Positions 26,700 through 63,961 of a DNA stretch of 64,000 nucleotides are shown one piece after another. The stretch lies in NCBI RefSeq assembly GCF_000003815.2, contig NC_049985.1, forward strand, positions 13,229,567 through 13,293,566, read 5' to 3'. Both the position numbers and the translations under genes were made by a program. The notes below the pieces were generated by a model. That model ran no database searches. It was not told the origin of the DNA and saw only the letters and a program-made list of their open reading frames with translations. The stretch is from Branchiostoma floridae. Lineage: Eukaryota; Chordata; Leptocardii; Amphioxiformes; Branchiostomatidae. The stretch's first letter is position 1; every line of letters begins with the position of its first letter.

Positions 26700-26905
26700 G
26701 AGAGGGTTAATGGTGATTTCTACACTAAATCTACTGACTACAGGTATTACTTAGATAAAACTAAAGTGGGCTGGAGCTGGGAATCTGTGCTTAGTAAGTA
26801 TGCCTGCCTCCAAGTCCACAAAAATCTGGGGTTGGAAGATTCAGGTAAGAGACATTGTCCTGCAGTTTTTACTTAACCAGGTCAACTGTAATGTTTGTTT
26901 TGCAG
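26700..26905 (+). other. Probable 5' UTR exon and short leader intron of the isomerase-like gene
   Basis: The coding exon at 26931 is preceded by a good acceptor (TTTGTTTTGCAG, ending 26905), so transcription starts further upstream. Two donors are in reach: GTAAGTA at 26795 and GTAAGAG at 26845. The latter would give a 61-bp intron. Which one is used cannot be decided by eye. No TATA box was recognised. Confidence 0.4.
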
Positions 26906-26930: not shown

Positions 26931-29044
26931 ATGAGCAGCACAACTCCTCAGTATTGGCTGGAGTACACCTTTACTGCATCTGAGCAGGGCCCGGGTCTTA
27001 ATGACCTGGTCCGAGGCACGGCCGATGCTCTGACCAAGGCCACATCAACAGTGGACAATGGAAAAGTTCTGTTCCTCTTCAAGGTAAGACACTTCCACAG
27101 TCCAATATTGCTGGATGTATTTGTACTGTCTTCCAATCTACATTTGAGTGTTCTGATAATAAACAGCAGTATCTTTATGCCCCCCTCCCCCAGGTATTGG
27201 CAGAACCTAAACTTATCGCAGGTGAGGCTCATGTCTATTGACAGTATTTTTCAGTTTTAACATGTCTTCAATTCGAATATCAACCTTGCAGATACACAAA
27301 GGGCATTGATTTTAACAACTTCACATAATTGATATCTCATTCCGCATCAATAGAAATAAAAAAAGTGTGATACACTGGCTTTAGGACTTAATCTATAATG
27401 CATTTCTCCACACTTGTGAAAATTACCAATATTATTATAAAATTCCATTTTTTGTCTGATTTTTATATATTGTCTTATTAAAGTGCTCTGAAACATATCT
27501 CAATATACATTTCAAGTTGTCCAAGCCAACGATGCTGCTGAGCTTGATGCTGCCCTGACAGCCAACCCAGCCCCTTGTTTCGGCCAGTTGGTGCAGGTTC
27601 AGTGCCTTCCACTCCGCCCTTATGAGGCATTCGCTAAGGAGGTTCTTGGTGTTGAGACTTCATTTCAACAAACTGAGGAGTGGGCCTCACCACCAGGCCA
27701 GTTCTACTGCGTAACGGTTGACGTAGAGTACACTGGTAAGGATTTCTCTTCGCATCAAATTACTTCAATGTGCAACTCAAAATATGGGAACTTATATGTA
27801 ATTCAAACAAACAATGAACAACTCTTGTACGATAAGAATTCTATACGTGACATACATGGAATTTAGAAAGAGAGAGACATTAATGATTAACAGTATAATA
27901 ACACTTACTACTCTACATTGTAAATAACAGATCTTCATTATGTAAAATTGGACCTCATTTTCATTATTAACTAATAATTAAGGAGAAACTGCAATGATAG
28001 CAGCTTTGCAGGAAATTTAAATGATAGGAATGTTACATTTTTGTGTATATGTGTGACATGTACCATCAGATATACAATGTTACTTATGCATATTGGGGTA
28101 TCATTTACATATCTAAATAGAAAAAAGTGTTGGCTGATGCATGGGGTCATGGATGTCTGGCGGAAATGTGCATGTATAACTATAAGCCATAGGATGAATT
28201 TTAGCTTAACCATATTAGATACTGCTACATGTAGTAAGGTTTCTCTGTGACATTCTTTCTAAGGCATGACGCAGGAAGAGCTGTACCAGATATGGAAACA
28301 AGAGGCCATGGCTGCACTCGGTGTGATGGAACAAGGGGGCGCCAAGCTCTGGAAGGTTGTGACAGAGAGGAAGGTACAAAATGGATATACACTGAACTGA
28401 TTGTGACAAAAGATGCAGGGACTGTCATTGGGAGTGTCATTGTCACTTTGGGCTGCATCTCTTCGAATTCCCAGCTACTACTTATTTTACATTGTACACA
28501 ATGTAAGATTCAAAAGTGCTACCTGCATGTAACTGACAACCCTTTTGAAATGAGTAGTATGGCTGAGAAGTTTATTGGATCATGTTAGTTCAAGTCATCA
28601 TTGCTACGCTGACACCAAAATGGCCACATGAAGTTACTTTAAATATTGCATACGCAGAAGACAACATTTCTTCATCTTTAACAATCAAAGAAAAGGCTAT
28701 GTAGTTCAGAGATACATGTTGACATTTTGGTCTCGAAGAATCGGCACATGCACGTTGAGGAGATTAATAATATATCATCAATAGGTTTCAAGAGACAGAG
28801 AGAAAAAGAGTAGGTTACCGAATGAAGAGGTTAATATTGATAATTGAGATCAAATTGAAGTACTTGAGAAGGGACAGGGGAAAAAGTTAATGTTGTGTTG
28901 TTGACTTGTACACAGGTGCTGCTCTTGCTGAAGATGCCCACTCCAGACGTGCTTGACAACACATTCATGATGGGGCTGCCGCTCTTCAAGCAGATGGGAA
29001 ACCAGACCCACACAGCCTGCAAACCCATTGTACCATTCAAGTAG
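26931..29044 (+). CDS. Two-domain muconolactone-isomerase-like protein (complete, 5 coding exons)
   Basis: The coding exons are 26931-27083, 27194-27221 (a 28-bp micro-exon), 27517-27735, 28264-28373 and 28916-29044. They join in frame (phases 0,1,1,0) to 212 residues ending in TAG. The micro-exon is required to keep the frame. The protein holds two related ferredoxin-like halves, residues about 7-98 and 123-209. Each has a predicted strand-helix-strand start, then G-K-V-L-F-L-F-K-V or G-A-K-L-W-K-V-V followed by a strand of aliphatic residues, and an (A/V)-x-E-L-D or D-V-L-D turn. Domain 2 ends G-L-P-L-F-K-Q-M-G as in the muconolactone delta-isomerase (CatC) family, where the usual protein is a single domain of about 95 residues acting in bacterial catechol breakdown. 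Domain 1 ends with P-L-R-P-Y-E-A-F-A. No signal peptide or membrane segment is seen, so it is probably cytosolic. Substrate and activity in an animal are unknown; the family call is by eye. The ATG at 26931 is the first in the exon, 25 bases after the acceptor. Confidence 0.85.
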
Positions 29045-29705: not shown

Positions 29706-29711
29706 AATAAA
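29706..29711 (+). terminator. Candidate poly(A) signal of the isomerase-like gene
   Basis: AATAAA lies 662 bases after the stop codon, followed by a T/GT-rich stretch (AGTTTGTTTTG). It is the first canonical signal downstream that I noticed on the plus strand. It implies a 3' UTR of about 0.68 kb. Confidence 0.5.
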
Positions 29712-29957
29712 GTTTGTTTTGCTACCTTACAACTGGAGTGTGAAGAATTTTGTTGAAATGTATTATGTTCGAAAGTAAAAAAAAATTGCGTGGCATAATT
29801 TGGTGTAATTGAATTGTTGATTAAATCAATAAAAAATTCCATGCAATGGTGCTACAAATGTATGTGCCACCAAAAGCAGGTAAAGGAACCTAAAGCATTT
29901 TCTGCTAGAATGGCTATTGCCCGAAAGGAAGGCCATTTTGTCAGGATTTCCATCCGT

Positions 29958-30229
29958 ATGTCTGTCTGGATGTTTCTGTCCGGATGTCTGTCAGAATGTC
30001 TGTCTGTATGTCTGTCCGTATGTCTGTCTGGATGTTTCTGTCCGGATGTCTGTCAGAATGTCTGTCTGTATGTCTGTCCGTATGTCTGTCTGGATGTTTC
30101 TGTCTGTATGTCTGTCCGTATGTCTGTCAGAATGTCTGTCCGGATTTCTGTCCGGATGTCTGTTTGGATGTCTGTCCGGATGTCTGTCCGGATTTCTGTC
30201 CGGATGTCTGTCCAGATGTCTGTCCGGAT
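29958..30229. repeat. 12-bp minisatellite, TGTCTGTC-NGNA units
   Basis: About 22 tandem units fit TGTCTGTC followed by CGGA, TGGA, TGTA, CGTA or AGAA. Some units are 14 bp (TGTTTCTGTCCGGA) and a few start TTTCTGTC. A higher-order block of roughly 62 bp (12+14+12+12+12) is repeated about twice. Because 12 is a multiple of 3, all plus-strand frames stay open over long stretches and spell Cys/Ser/Val/Met-rich peptides; these are artefacts of the repeat and not genes. Confidence 0.95.
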
Positions 30230-47104: not shown

Positions 47105-49329
47105 ACTTACTATCGTTGAAAAGGTCTCTTGGTATCTAGCTATAATCTAAAAATCGTTTCCAAACCAGGTGCGTAAAGCCAACATGGCTAAAACGGGCTC
47201 TAGTCGGTCAAACTTGGTATAGATGGAAAGGTCTCTTGGTAGCTAGAGGTAATCTAAAACAGTTTTTAAGTCGGGTGCTTTCTTCTCGAGAAATGAGTTA
47301 AGCACTACACTAACCCAGGCAGTTAGGGTTAGGGTTGGGGTTAGGGTTAGGATAGTGCTCAGAGCCAACATAACCTAAAAACGGGATCTAGTCGCCAAAC
47401 TTGGTATTGTTAAAGAGGTATCTTGGTAAAGAGTTGAAATCTGCAAACCGTTTGGGAATCGGGTGCTTAGTTTCCGAGATATGACTTAAGCACTTAACAC
47501 TAGAATTAGGGTTAGGTTTACGGTTAGGGTTAGGGTGGTGCTTAGAGGCAACATGGCTAAGAGTGTATTCTAGTCGCTCAAACATGGTATCATTAAGAAG
47601 GTATCTTGGGGCAGAGTCGTAATCTGCAAACACGTTTGAAATAGGGTGCTTGCTTCCCGAGATATAACTTAAGCACTTACCGGTAGGGTTAGGGTTAGGG
47701 TTACGGTTAGGGTAGGGCTTAGAGTCAACATGGCTAAGAGTGTATTTTCGTCGGTCAAACTTGGTATCATTGAAAATGTATCTTGGTACAGAGTCGTAAT
47801 CTGCAAACCGTTTTGAAATCGGGTGCTTACTTCCCGAGGTATAACTTAAGCACTAATCGCTAGGGTTACGGTAACGGTTAGGCCGTTAGGGTATTGCTTA
47901 GAGGCAACATGGCTAAGGGTGTACTCTAGTCGCTTAAACATAGTATCACTGAAAAGGTATCTTGGTACAGAGTCGTAATCTGCAAACCGTTTTGAAATCG
48001 GGTGCTTTCTGTCTGAGATATGACTTAAACACTAACCGCTAGGGTTAGGCTTAGGGTTAGGGTTAGGATAGTGCTTAGAGGCAACATGGCTAATACTGTA
48101 TTTTAATCGGTCAAACTTGGTATCATTACAAAGGTATCTTTGTACAGAGTCGTAATCTGCAAACCGTTTTGAAATAGGGTGCTTACTTCCCGAGATATGA
48201 CTTAAGCACTAACCGCTAGGGTTAGGGTTAGGGTTAGGGTTAGGGTAGTGCTTAGAGGCAACATGGCTAAGAGTGTATTTAAGTCGGTCAAACTTGGTAT
48301 CATTAAGAAGGTATCTTGGTACAGAGTCGTAATCTGCATACGTATTGATATCGGGTGCTTACTTCCCGAGATATGACTTAAACAATAACCACTAATGTAT
48401 GGGTTAGGGTTAAGGTTAGGGTTAGGGTTAGGGTAGTGCTTAGAGGCAACATGGCTAAGAGTGTATTCTAGTCGGTCAAACTTGGTATCATTAAGAAGGT
48501 ATCTTGGTTCAGAGTCGTAATATGCGAACCGTTTTGAAATCGGGTGCTTACTTCCCGAGATATAATTTAAGCACTAATCGCTAGGATTAGGGTTACGGTA
48601 ACGGTTAGGTTAGTGCTTAGAGGCAACATGGCTAAGAGTGTATTCTAGTCGGTCAAACTTGGTATCATTAAGAAGGTATCTTGGTTCAGAGTCGTAATCG
48701 GCAAACCGTTTTGAAATCGGGTGCTTACTTCCCGAGATATAACTTAAGCACTAATCGCTAGGGTTAGGGTCACGGTGACGGTTAGGGTAGTGCTTAGAGG
48801 CAACATGGCTAAGGGTGTACTCTAGTCGCTTAAACATGGTATCATTGAGAAGGTATCTTGGTACAGAGTCGTAATCTGTAAACCGTTTTGAAATCGGGTG
48901 CTTACTTTTCGAGATATGACTTAAACACTAACCGCTAGGGTTAGGGTTAGGGTTAGGGTTAGGGTTAGGGTTAGGGTTAGGGTTAGGGTTAGGGTTAGGG
49001 TTAGGGTTAGGGTTAGGGTTAGGGTTAGGGTTAGGGTTAGGGTTAGGGTAGTGCTTAGAGGCAACATGGCTAAGAGTGTATTTAAGTCGGTCAAACTTGG
49101 TATCATTAAGAAGGTAGCTTGGTACAGAGTCGTAATCTGCATACGTATTGATATCGGGTGCTTACTTCCCGAGATATGACTTAAACACTAACCGCTAATG
49201 TGTAGGTTAGGGTTAAGGTTAGGGTTAGGGTAGTGCTTAAAGAAAACATGGCTAAGAGTGTATTCTAGTCGGTCAAACTTGGTATCATTAAGAAGGTATC
49301 TTGGTTCAGAGTCGTAATATGCGAACCGT
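47105..49329 (+). repeat. Satellite of about 177-bp units spaced by TTAGGG runs
   Basis: At least 12 tandem units can be anchored by the word AACATGGCTAA or its variants at 47181, 47367, 47549, 47727, 47906, 48083, 48260, 48448, 48625, 48802, 49063 and 49245. Each unit holds GTCAAACTTGGTATCATT, AAGGTATCTTGGTACAGAG, GCAAACCGTTTTGAAATCGG, GGTGCTTACTTCCCGAGATA and TTAAGCACTAACCGCTAG, then a run of (TTAGGG)n. The commonest period is 177; the longest (261) differs from it by 84, or 14 TTAGGG units. The leftmost two units are the most diverged. Open frames here are artefacts. Confidence 0.95.
48941..49048 (+). repeat. Perfect (TTAGGG)18 interstitial telomeric tract
   Basis: Eighteen uninterrupted copies of the metazoan telomere hexamer lie between two satellite units. 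Other units carry only a few copies, sometimes mutated (TTACGG, TAACGG). It sits inside the satellite with sequence continuing on both sides, so in this assembly it is interstitial and not a chromosome end. Confidence 0.97.
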
Positions 49330-49429
49330 NNNNNNNNNNNNNNNNNNNNNNNNNNNNNNNNNNNNNNNNNNNNNNNNNNNNNNNNNNNNNNNNNNNNNNN
49401 NNNNNNNNNNNNNNNNNNNNNNNNNNNNN
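49330..49429. other. Assembly gap of exactly 100 N
   Basis: A 100-N run is the conventional placeholder for a gap of unknown size. It falls where satellite orientation changes, so the true array length and the join are uncertain. Confidence 0.98.
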
Positions 49430-60151: not shown

Positions 60152-63100
60152 TTAAGAACATGGGACCTTCTGTCGGAGCTGTATGAAGTCCAGAGCGGAG
60201 TTGTTGAAGTTGATGATCCCGCACAGCACCATCATGTGCCACCAGTGGTGACTCTGTCCAACATAGTCAAACCATCCTGTACAGGGGGAGACAACAGGGA
60301 TTCAGCAGTCTTTCCTCAAAAGTGAATCTTGAGAACTACTGCAGTCATTCTCCTATGCAGAGCCGGAATACATCTTAGGAGGCTCTGCTAAACCGGGCTG
60401 AGGTTTCCAATTTTGTGGGCGTATCCTCTAACCAGCTGTCTGCCAATCAGAGAATCGGCTTTGCCTTAAGAAAACATTTAGGCAACTCTCCAATTGGCTG
60501 ACAGCTCGGAAGCTCTAAGTCATGCTAAGCTGTCCACTTTTGTGACCTTGGCCCGTAGCAGCTGTCAGCCAATCAGACAGTTACCTTAATGTATCCTCTA
60601 GGCAAAGGCAAAGCCGATTCTCTGATTGGCTGGCAACTGGTAAGAGGTCACGCCCACAAGCAGAGGAGCTCGAGACTCTTCAAGATATTCTATAGGCCGC
60701 TGGCAAGACCCTGTGTAGGGTAATGACTACAGTAGGGCAATCGAAAATTCGATGCGCTAACTCATTGTGTTATCTCTGTTTTATCTCTGTAATATTAGTA
60801 ACACGATTTATAGTTGTTAATGCGCCAGGTAAAAGAGACATCAACTTTACCTGGGGCTAGTCTCTCCGGTAGCTGGGATGTGTAGGAGACGAGACAGGCC
60901 AGGGAGTAGAACACCACTCCCAGGAAACGCTGACAGAAGTACTGTTGAAACGAGGACATGGATTAAACATACAAAGAACAAGGAGTAGCGGGTTGCATGT
61001 TACAGCTTCTTCGTCTCTTTATTTTTCTTTCATGCCAAGCGTTAACCATACAATTACACACAGTACTTCCTACACACAGTAAGTACTTCCAGCCGTGTCT
61101 CTGTCCAGTAAATCCTTAGCTAGTCATGCACAAGTGTTAGCTTTACCTGCCTTTATTTATTCTATTACTTGTATATACACATTTCCATTTTGTATTGTAT
61201 ATTTATATGTCTATGGCCACGATACCAGCCACGCTGCCTAGTGCCTACAGTGTATTGTTTTGTTACAACCTGAATAAAGAAAAAAACACACAGTACACTA
61301 AACTCCAAGATCTCATCACTCATTTACACTGATACTTTCATCAGCAACGCACACGATTGAATCAAGGGTTCATGACCCGCCCGAGGTGTATATGGTGTCA
61401 TAACGCCTGGTCCAATGAAACCACCGATGTGAGCGAAGCGAAGGGTCCACGGAGAAAAAGGGCAGGAAGTGCCTTTACCTGTCCGGTAGGATGCGACAAG
61501 CCGCCGTTGCTACAGATGGCATGTACTATTGGCACAGCGCCATATCCCCACTGCAAAGCCGTCAGCGTGATGCGCCTGCAGTGTGGAAAAAGGCGTGAGA
61601 TCTGTCAATTAATGAACTGTTCATTTTGAATCAGAATCTGATTCAGCCCCTGGCGTACATTCGACGAGCTTCGGCCGTATTTGTTAGTCCGAACCTAAAA
61701 AAATCGTCAGCGGCTCGAGCGTATGTTTTACCTGAAAACCTTTCCCACCACATTGGATGGTACTTGAGGACCTGATCGGCCAATCCCTCCAGAATGGCGA
61801 TATTATCGATAGAACATCGAGCGTTTTGCTGCCGATGATATCATTTAGAGCTCGTAGACTATGAATGTACCAATTTTGTTCATTTTGGCTCTGAGTCTGA
61901 AGTCCCGGGCACACAGTCGTTGAGCCGTTGATTGTCAGAATGTCGCCGAATTTAAGACTCGCCGAAGGCTCGAGCGTATTTTTCACCTGAAAATGTACCC
62001 CGTCCTGCTTGCGCACATGCAAATATCGGCCGATCTTCCCGAAATCGCGCAATTATCGAGGGAACACCGGTCTGGCTACCGTGCCGAAAATACCATTTAC
62101 AGCTCGCAGACTCGTCGGGCCATCGATTTTCTTGCTGTGTGTCGCGGGCATTAGGGATGTGCACATCACCAAAACACACAAGCCTGCAGTACAAACCTTT
62201 TCAGCACGGCGGCGTCTTGAGTCTGGCCGACCTCATCGTCCTTGAACTCGACGGCAACGTTCAGGAAGAACAGCGACCAAGCCACAACATGATGCGTGTA
62301 AAAGTACCACTGCATATGCGTGACGACAAAACAGATTGTGCGACGTCACGACTTATGGACAACAAACACTGACACGTCATTATCACATGCAGCAAACAAC
62401 ACCAAGTCAAGATCTAGGAGTAAAGCCTTGGACTGTTCCTTGGCTACCTTCTGTAGATATGGACCATCCCAACATCACCCCACTACAACATGGTATGTTC
62501 TTAATTCTTTCCACTAACTAGTTTTATTATACAAGTGTCATATCTTCACATTTACATATGCACAATAGGGAAGTAATCACCCGGGACAAGGATAGCAAAG
62601 TTTTTGATTATGAATGTTTTATGATGGACACATATCAATGAAACTTGACGTAAGGCGTGTTCTGACCCACCTCATCACAAATGCCGTAGTAGAGTATGAT
62701 GAACTGAAAGCCGTGAACTCCGATGAAGATCCCGAACAGGTCCAGCCTCAGACTGAGGCCTCGCACTTCTGGAGACCGGTGGCCGCCGAAAATGTGACAG
62801 CATGCAGATGACAGTAGAGTCACCTACATCAAAAACAATGTTCTTTACTATGAAACTAAAGTTTACCTAACCAACACAAGTTGGGACTTACAGAAATGTC
62901 CTTTATGATATTAATCATCTGATAGAATCCAAATTGATTAGGAAAGCTACATGATGTTTAGGTATACGTATTTGAAACAAGTTTTGATTTTCAAAATTAA
63001 CGCTGGCATTGTTCACCTTTATCCGAGGGATAACCTATATCTGTTGTTTTTAAAAACAGGGTATTTATGTGTATAAAGTCGGCGGATGTTGCAATATTAT

Positions 63101-63961
63101 AGACTTGCCATACTCGTGAGAGTGGCCGTCATCACATTATAAGGATAACTGAACATTTTGCAAATATTGCAATTTGCTACCACCATTTGTTGACTTTATG
63201 TCCCTAATACTCTATCTTTTTTAAACAACGGATATAGGTTCTCCGGCGGATAAAAGTGAACCAGCGTTAGCTCACATTGCCTTGCAGGGGTGTACGGGGA
63301 TATCTTTAGGCAACACGAATGTCTTATTCATCCTTTATAACTACATGTATTACCTCACTACATAACAGGTGGGCGCTGACAATCACGTGATCCCAGAAGT
63401 TGCCATGGTAACGAGGTATCGTCACGAAGTTTTCCCAGACGAGCATGGACATGACGTACACAAACCCGATGGCATGGGTCCATATACTGATGGTCTCGTT
63501 GTGCCATTGAAATATGCTGCAAGAAACCTATGGTTATTGAATATTTACCCAATTCTGCCTAGTTCTATTGTTCTGTGATAAACCTATGTGAACGAAAAAA
63601 ATCGTAAATGAAAAATGTTTTTGAAGATGACAAATGCACATTTTCAAGTATGACCTACTCTCACAGCCAACACATTAAGTGAATTCGACAATATTTAATT
63701 TCAATGTGCACTACATTTTCAGTACTGGTGTACACGTTTTTGTCCAGCCCGAAAAGGATGTATAATTTATACTTTCACTTATTACAAATCTGCAAACAAC
63801 TTGCATTGTAAATTTATTTCCTGATCACTATGTCGGAGAGACTTCCTACCTTCTCAGGCATTCTTTGGTTGTCAGTCCGGTCCGGTACCCTGTCAGGATG
63901 TGGTCATGTCCGAAATATTTTGTTCCTGACACTTCCTCTAACGTGTACAATCTCTTCGGAC
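60152..63961 (-). CDS. PAQR-family seven-helix membrane receptor (5' partial, 7 exons)
   Basis: Minus-strand exons in coding order are 63961-63850, 63516-63354, 62823-62671, 62309-62197, 61575-61479, 60941-60851 and 60276-60152. All join in frame and end in TAA, giving 283 visible residues; the N-terminal exon lies beyond the right edge. Family hallmarks: I-L-T-G-Y-R (near 23-28), H-N-E-T-I-S-I-W-T-H (42-51), S-S-A-C-C-H (96-101), L-R-L-D-L-F-G-I, G-Y-G-A-V-P-I-V-H, L-P-E-R-L-A-P-G-W-F-D-Y and G-Q-S-H-H-W-W-H. The four zinc-site residues known from adiponectin receptors are present as H101, D119, H252 and H256. Seven hydrophobic segments follow the family topology. PAQR proteins (progestin and adipoQ receptors) sit in plasma or Golgi membranes, and some act as ceramidase-like zinc hydrolases. 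The subfamily is uncertain; the short C-terminal tail (K-V-P-C-S) and motifs recall PAQR3-like members. The last intron holds a foldback element. Confidence 0.95.
60411..60660. mobile_element. Foldback element in the last PAQR intron
   Basis: Arms 60411-60468 and 60605-60660 are inverted (GTGGGCGTATCCTCTAACC; CCAATCAGAGAATCGGC; TTTGCCTT). An inner pair is also inverted (CCAATTGGCTGACAGCT against AGCTGTCAGCCAATCAG). GCCAATCAG, an NF-Y-type CCAAT box, therefore occurs repeatedly in both orientations. It has no coding frame. It sits between coding exons at 60276 and 60851. Confidence 0.8.
61711..62155. repeat. Two diverged tandem units, about 252-bp period, in a PAQR intron
   Basis: Unit 1 starts GGCTCGAGCGTATGTTTTAC near 61713 and unit 2 starts GGCTCGAGCGTATTTTTCAC near 61965. 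Both continue with CCTGAAAA, a CGGCCAAT or CGGCCGAT word, TTATCGA, TACCATTTACAGCTC or TATCATTTAGAGCTC, and a TCCCGGGCA or TCGCGGGCA end. A 122-codon minus-strand frame spans both units but has internal repeats and no link to the PAQR frame, so it is not called a gene. Confidence 0.6.
62997..63270. mobile_element. MITE family C, copy 3 (about 274 bp), in a PAQR intron
   Basis: The left end is TAACGCTGG, then CATT, then GTTCACCTTTATCCG with GATAACCTATATCTGTTG. The right end is CAACGGATATAGGTTCTCC and GATAAAAGTGAACCAGCGTTA. The extra CATT is absent from the right end. It lies between coding exons 62671-62823 and 63354-63516. Confidence 0.75.

Follow-up and report, generated by a model that had tools for sequence, protein, structure and literature searches.

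The best described relatives of the gene considered here are CatC (1mli) and ClcF (3znj, 3zo7, 4fpi), proteins of the muconolactone isomerase family (MIase, PF02426), which is known from aromatic catabolism. In ClcF, Glu27 reportedly takes the proton as general base, in an active site that is said to be shared between two subunits. Passages of one paper (PMC4835899) describe canonical muconolactone isomerase as a homodecamer and have the barrels of the superfamily arise either by dimerization or by duplication and fusion. The same passages present HmoB and OxdA, in which two fused ferredoxin-like domains form one barrel, although these proteins bind heme and belong to other families. Here, a gene encoding two MIase-like domains is described from the lancelet Branchiostoma floridae. 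It occupies positions 26931-29044 of the forward strand in a stretch of 64,000 nucleotides (contig NC_049985.1, positions 13,229,567 to 13,293,566), hereafter the window, located on a 26-Mb scaffold of a genome of 513 Mb in 431 contigs. With a probability of about 0.55, the encoded protein is a pseudo-dimer fused in one chain, one of its sites still working and the other retired, and would have arisen by tandem duplication of one MIase-like domain. At the position of the putative catalytic glutamate, Glu stands in the second half of the protein and not in the first.

Gene structure and family assignment of the two halves

The joined frame of five exons is open and encodes 212 residues. All four introns are of the GT-AG type, with phases 0, 1, 1 and 0. 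The exons and the codons at the catalytic position, the latter counted from the sequence and the alignment described below, are as follows:

26931-27083 (+): exon 1, 153 nucleotides, residues 1-51, first strand and helix of half 1
27027-27029 (+): codon of Ala33 in exon 1, catalytic-Glu position of half 1
27194-27221 (+): exon 2, a microexon of 28 nucleotides, residues 52-60 and the first base of codon 61
27517-27735 (+): exon 3, 219 nucleotides, codons 61-134, remainder of half 1 with its PLRPYEAF extension, linker and start of half 2
28264-28373 (+): exon 4, 110 nucleotides, first helix and second strand of half 2
28302-28304 (+): codon of Glu147 in exon 4, catalytic-Glu position of half 2
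28916-29044 (+): exon 5, 129 nucleotides including the stop, residues 171-212, third strand of half 2 to the C terminus

No signal peptide was seen by eye in the 212-residue protein. In Pfam-A, MIase (PF02426) is the sole family matched and covers two stretches (E 4.4e-12; 46.4 bits, cut-off 26.7). The initial annotation, made from the DNA letters, had proposed two fused MIase-like domains in one spliced gene with four introns and a comparison with PF02426; the two-stretch match, with no other Pfam family, and the five-exon GT-AG frame bear it out. Its account of the motifs stands in part. The motifs that it quoted exist, but PLRPYEAFA is not special to half 1: bacterial MIase-like proteins commonly have it as an extension at the C terminus (PLRxYxxF).

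Half 2 alone also passes the Pfam cut-off (30.9 bits), and its profile matches the cyanobacterial group of relatives with a probability of 99.5% and the canonical group with 79.1%; these bacterial groups, here and below, were assigned by us from locus origin and look, ahead of tree building. The two-row profile of half 1 matches half 2 with a probability of 95.9%, the cyanobacterial group with 97.0% and the ankyrin-linked group with 96.8%, and the maxima of 20 column shuffles per target were 0.4, 2.1 and 1.2%, respectively. Against the bacterial groups, the matched part of half 1 begins only near its residue 31, which leaves out the first strand and the greater part of the first helix. Judged by these profile matches, half 1 is a relative of the MIase family, despite a Pfam score of its own below the cut-off. 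When the 212 residues were searched directly against the PDB with phmmer, no relative was found.

A constrained paralogue with the same introns

A protein search of the same genome gave at least eight matches, at least four of them in the window gene and at least four at one other place, on a 35-Mb scaffold. This second locus (L084) encodes a paralogue of 228 residues in five exons:

L084:3887-4033: paralogue exon 1
L084:4555-4582: paralogue exon 2
L084:5373-5597: paralogue exon 3
L084:5832-5941: paralogue exon 4
L084:6849-7025: paralogue exon 5

All four introns equal those of the window gene in position and phase, which confirms the gene model, the 28-nucleotide exon 2 included. The paralogue scores 29.2 bits against PF02426 (cut-off 26.7), and 106 of the 209 residues aligned with the window protein are identical. 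The non-synonymous distance (dN, by NG86) is 0.37, with no value for the synonymous distance (taken as saturated), and the differences at the first, second and third codon positions number 74, 50 and 129. From the identity, the dN and this distribution of differences, both genes look constrained at the protein level. Since both paralogues have two domains and the same introns, the two-domain form is, by this comparison, older than the split of the two lancelet paralogues. Half 2 of the paralogue has a longer C terminus (VVPYTYEDF...), a version of the bacterial extension, before which half 2 of the window gene ends.

The putative catalytic glutamate is kept in one half

The four animal halves of the two paralogues were aligned with 138 distinct bacterial rows. 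In the column of ClcF Glu27, a position marked by the structure of the E27A variant with substrate (3zo7), Glu stands in 130 of the 138 bacterial rows and in 127 of the 128 rows that belong to five named groups. Glu is missing from a single cyanobacterial row, from six rows of a divergent actinobacterial type and from the second half of a bacterial fusion protein. Half 2 has Glu in this column in both paralogues (Glu147 in the window protein), and half 1 in neither (Ala33 in the window protein). The earlier suggestion that one half may have changed role is supported by this loss of Glu from half 1 in both paralogues.

The fused bacterial protein is encoded by a frame of 210 codons from the phylum of Desulfarculus (genome G1189, L178:1483-2112) and has two MIase-like domains (65.6 and 31.8 bits). 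Among the bacterial loci examined, the profile picked out no other two-domain frame. Like the lancelet protein, it joins two such domains in one frame and has Glu in one half only. It differs in that its first half keeps Glu (in the lancelet, the second), the other half being degenerate, with a gap and Asn at this place. In a tree of 62 rows (58 of the 138 distinct bacterial rows and the four animal halves), the ankyrin-linked group takes in both of its halves (93/46, not starred), of which the second is a long row. Because of this placement and of Glu in the first half, the bacterial fusion looks independent of the animal one.

A predicted single-chain pseudo-dimer

A bacterial relative of 102 residues (L008), modelled with 14 sequences, is predicted to be ferredoxin-like (mean predicted local distance difference test score 82.2; predicted template modelling score 0.69). 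The best matches of its predicted fold in the PDB are ClcF (3znu) and 1mli, and the 13 PDB chains that reach an E-value of 0.001 or lower are all ClcF or muconolactone isomerase. A further fold comparison pointed to ClcF once more. The likeness of the lancelet protein to CatC and ClcF lies in the Pfam family, in the fold seen in this bacterial relative and in the Glu27 column kept in half 2; the CatC and ClcF subunits are single-domain. From the pattern of Glu, the fold of the relative and the formation of superfamily barrels by fusion, we infer a single-chain pseudo-dimer.

The two halves, each ferredoxin-like, would pack like the two subunits of a bacterial homodimer, so that a single alpha+beta barrel would hold two pockets that differ. 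The pocket of half 2, with its general base kept, could still shuffle protons, in the isomerization or elimination of a small carbonyl or lactone compound. The pocket of half 1, with its base lost, would have a role in structure or binding. The fusion itself would stem from tandem duplication of one MIase-like domain, of a kind that is now mainly cyanobacterial, and this event would predate both the present introns and the split of the lancelet paralogues.

Nearest relatives and their distribution in bacteria

A tblastn search of plasmids matched 10 records. The best match is WP_096545470.1 of Cylindrospermopsis curvispora, aligned with half 2 at 39% identity (E 1e-9). Matches from Streptomyces and Nostoc have identities of 31 to 42% (E 0.02 to 0.2), and four Streptomyces matches and one other have pieces on both halves. 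One match (E 8) is a different protein; all the others are named 'muconolactone Delta-isomerase family protein'. The Cylindrospermopsis protein shares with the animal protein the MIase family, the kept Glu and G-x-x-V-x-V, and its PLRxYxxF-like C-terminal layout is kept in animal half 1 and partly in half 2 of the paralogue. It differs in being a single domain of 101 residues, encoded with no introns.

Whole genomes were searched at E 0.001 or better with a profile made from the animal halves and three bacterial proteins, one of them cyanobacterial, so that its scores favour that type. Matches occur in 17 of 292 genomes of the cyanobacterial phylum, 32 of 398 of Pseudomonadota, 28 of 346 of Actinomycetota, 3 of 247 of the phylum of Desulfarculus and 2 of 249 of the phylum of a Clostridiales genome. 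By our reading of the results, 13 of the 17 matching cyanobacterial-phylum genomes hold the Cylindrospermopsis type, at 14 places with 116 bits or more. Among the Pseudomonadota matches, one is a strong match of the Cylindrospermopsis type, one is of the ankyrin-linked type and the others are weak; the weak ones that entered the alignment carry the canonical residues. Two other searches confirmed no relative, neither among 3 pattern matches in viral contigs nor among 74 matches of an initial pattern scan of genome contigs.

Across the whole alignment, half 2 reaches up to 40% identity to the cyanobacterial group, and its identity to canonical rows does not exceed 25%; for half 1, identity to any bacterial group is at most 28%. 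By these measures, the nearest relatives among the tested bacterial sequences are uncharacterised single-domain proteins, mainly cyanobacterial. The initial framing as a domain of aromatic catabolism is right as to the family, but the nearest tested relatives are other MIase-like proteins and not an aromatic-catabolism enzyme. The homologues compared are bacterial, and the lancelet may owe the domain to horizontal transfer or to ancient inheritance.

Genes neighbouring the bacterial members vary. A UPF0182 gene adjoins three of the four cyanobacterial loci scanned and a release factor gene adjoins one; at locus L116 the neighbours are glyoxalase and a ribbon-helix-helix protein. No neighbour is common to the scanned MIase-like loci (the four cyanobacterial ones and L116). 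Elsewhere, at 58 of 68 loci of one bacterial group (L008-L075), an ankyrin-repeat protein gene lies in the flanks of the single-domain MIase-like gene (tblastn with two ankyrin-repeat proteins as queries, E 1e-5). At 45 loci it is upstream; at the other 13, from Rhodoplanes, Sphingobium, Desulfarculus, a Nitrospirae and Clostridia, it is downstream. On this count, MIase-like and ankyrin-repeat genes are a conserved pair. The frame 5′ of the fused gene at L178 resembles an ankyrin-repeat protein by eye.

Alternative explanations

Several observations weigh against a pseudo-dimer with one working site that arose by duplication. Half 1 alone scores 18.9 bits against PF02426, under the cut-off of 26.7, and its profile matches the canonical group with a probability of 0.6%. 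As to catalysis, all four animal halves lack Y50, N52 and S54, which are fixed in 32 of 32 canonical rows. In the 62-row tree, half 1 has a branch of 2.56 and stands with the ankyrin-linked group (99/86). Warnings that long branches meet persist in the smaller trees, and the support that one of these gives to a single clade of animal halves is not starred.

The lack of these three residues would suit an explanation in which both halves are binding modules without catalysis, the protein being a store or carrier of a small hydrophobic ligand and Glu147 a structural residue. Glu147 is the very residue by which half 2 could still be catalytic, and this explanation, although it deserves serious attention, is unlikely.

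A second alternative concerns origin and holds that two MIase-like subfamilies were joined, half 1 being ankyrin-linked and half 2 cyanobacterial. The 62-row tree agrees with it on both counts, by the placement of half 1 and by that of half 2, whose clade (97/89) also holds the cyanobacterial group and the three rows near a Rhodococcus plasmid protein. The length of the half-1 branch speaks against it, as do approximately unbiased (AU) tests. A single clade of the four animal halves costs just 0.78 log units in the 62-row tree (p-AU 0.478, not rejected), half 1 on the cyanobacterial side is likewise not rejected (p-AU 0.41) and a union of all animal halves with the ankyrin-linked group, at a cost of 20.3 log units, comes near rejection (p-AU 0.0575). 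A tree of 44 rows was made from 15 ankyrin-linked, 15 cyanobacterial-type and 10 actinobacterial rows and the four animal halves; relative to the larger set it lacks the canonical group, the three Rhodococcus-plasmid-protein rows, L181, L070, L029 and both L178 halves, and gains two cyanobacterial rows. With long rows thus removed, half 1 changes place: all animal halves fall together in a single clade (93/75, not starred), which lies inside a larger one shared with the cyanobacterial group (98/97, starred). In a tree without half 2, half 1 joins the cyanobacterial group (93/88, not starred); such single-half trees included 10 canonical rows as well. Both halves of both paralogues have in common a Cys (Cys90 and Cys205) in a column that is V, I, W or M in 138 of 138 bacterial rows and Cys in none. 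A union of two sources is, on this evidence, improbable, and half 1 with the ankyrin-linked group, once the leading reading, was dropped after the AU tests and the smaller trees.

Duplication of one domain thus appears the better reading, short of being shown. The proposal of the initial annotation, duplication and fusion, finds support in the 44-row clade, the shared Cys and the profile match between the halves, and is opposed by the 62-row tree, which separates them. Projected onto half 2, the introns of half 1 lie at residues 164 and 174; half 2 itself is interrupted after residue 170 and, in phase 1, within codon 134, the latter intron being without a counterpart in half 1. As these positions do not match, the present introns would have been gained after the duplication, or have moved.

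A true muconolactone isomerase, acting in an animal aromatic-catabolism (beta-ketoadipate) pathway, would share the Pfam family and the Glu kept in half 2. Yet the protein scores 20.7 bits against the muconolactone isomerase equivalog TIGR03221 (cut-off 130.6), and at canonical positions 50, 52 and 54 the animal halves have P/R, L/I/V and A/V/L/M. Y50, N52 and S54 are equally absent from the 96 rows of four other bacterial groups. Because the equivalog cut-off is missed and the three residues are lacking, the window protein is, by these two tests, not a canonical muconolactone isomerase; its substrate is probably not muconolactone, and a role in such a pathway is very improbable. Bacterial contamination, a pseudogene or a chance frame can be set aside, for although the closest testable sequences are bacterial (as were the collections searched), the gene has four GT-AG introns, lies inside a 26-Mb scaffold, is constrained in protein sequence and shares all its introns with an intact paralogue that lies on a 35-Mb scaffold.

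Other features of the window

Further features lie close to the gene or elsewhere in the window:

26894-26905 (+): putative 3′ splice acceptor TTTGTTTTGCAG, immediately 5′ of the ATG, read from the sequence
29706-29711 (+): AATAAA, candidate polyadenylation signal, with a second AATAAA at 29828
29953-30229: minisatellite with the 12-base unit TCCGGATGTCTG, 22.6 copies and a 62-base higher-order unit, about 900 bases 3′ of the gene
47324-49049: satellite with a 177-base unit, about 9 copies with runs of TAGGGT within the unit, then 19 perfect TAGGGT copies
60798-63527 (-): three open frames matching PF03006 (HlyIII, PAQR receptor family), two of them above the cut-off

The putative acceptor suggests an intron in the 5′ untranslated region. 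TAGGGT is presumably the telomere hexamer of vertebrate type; the satellite and hexamer array is internal to the scaffold and close to an assembly gap (49330-49429). The PF03006 frames are an ordinary animal gene.

Significance for the MIase family in animals

In the open-paper literature, nothing was found on the MIase family in animals, lancelets included; the papers matched concern bacterial EVE domains (PMC7641849), a sponge microbiome and a Mycolicibacterium, and PF02426 is mentioned there in one paper, on a lignin consortium. One other animal protein invites comparison, the ovorubin (PV1) chain PcOvo5 of the apple snail (9uaj, 204 residues), which we take to be an egg carotenoprotein. 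Its residues 109-199 match the fold and residues 20-75 match the profile weakly; there is no significant sequence match. These weak matches suggest that it may also be two-domain. A wider proposal is speculative and rather unlikely: a separate animal family of two-domain MIase-like proteins would have come from one capture of a single-domain gene of the cyanobacterial kind followed by tandem fusion, with one half an enzyme and the other binding, and ovorubin would be a distant, all-binding member.

For annotation, it is unsafe to name such animal genes 'muconolactone isomerase' from the Pfam label. For the family, which is known from aromatic catabolism, a bacterial-type enzyme domain appears in a chordate as a fused duplicate, in two genes under constraint. 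The Glu/Ala asymmetry of the two halves provides a specific and testable claim as to how a symmetric homodimer could become an asymmetric single-chain enzyme or carrier, and the bacterial fusion at L178, with the same kind of asymmetry, would serve as its natural replicate.
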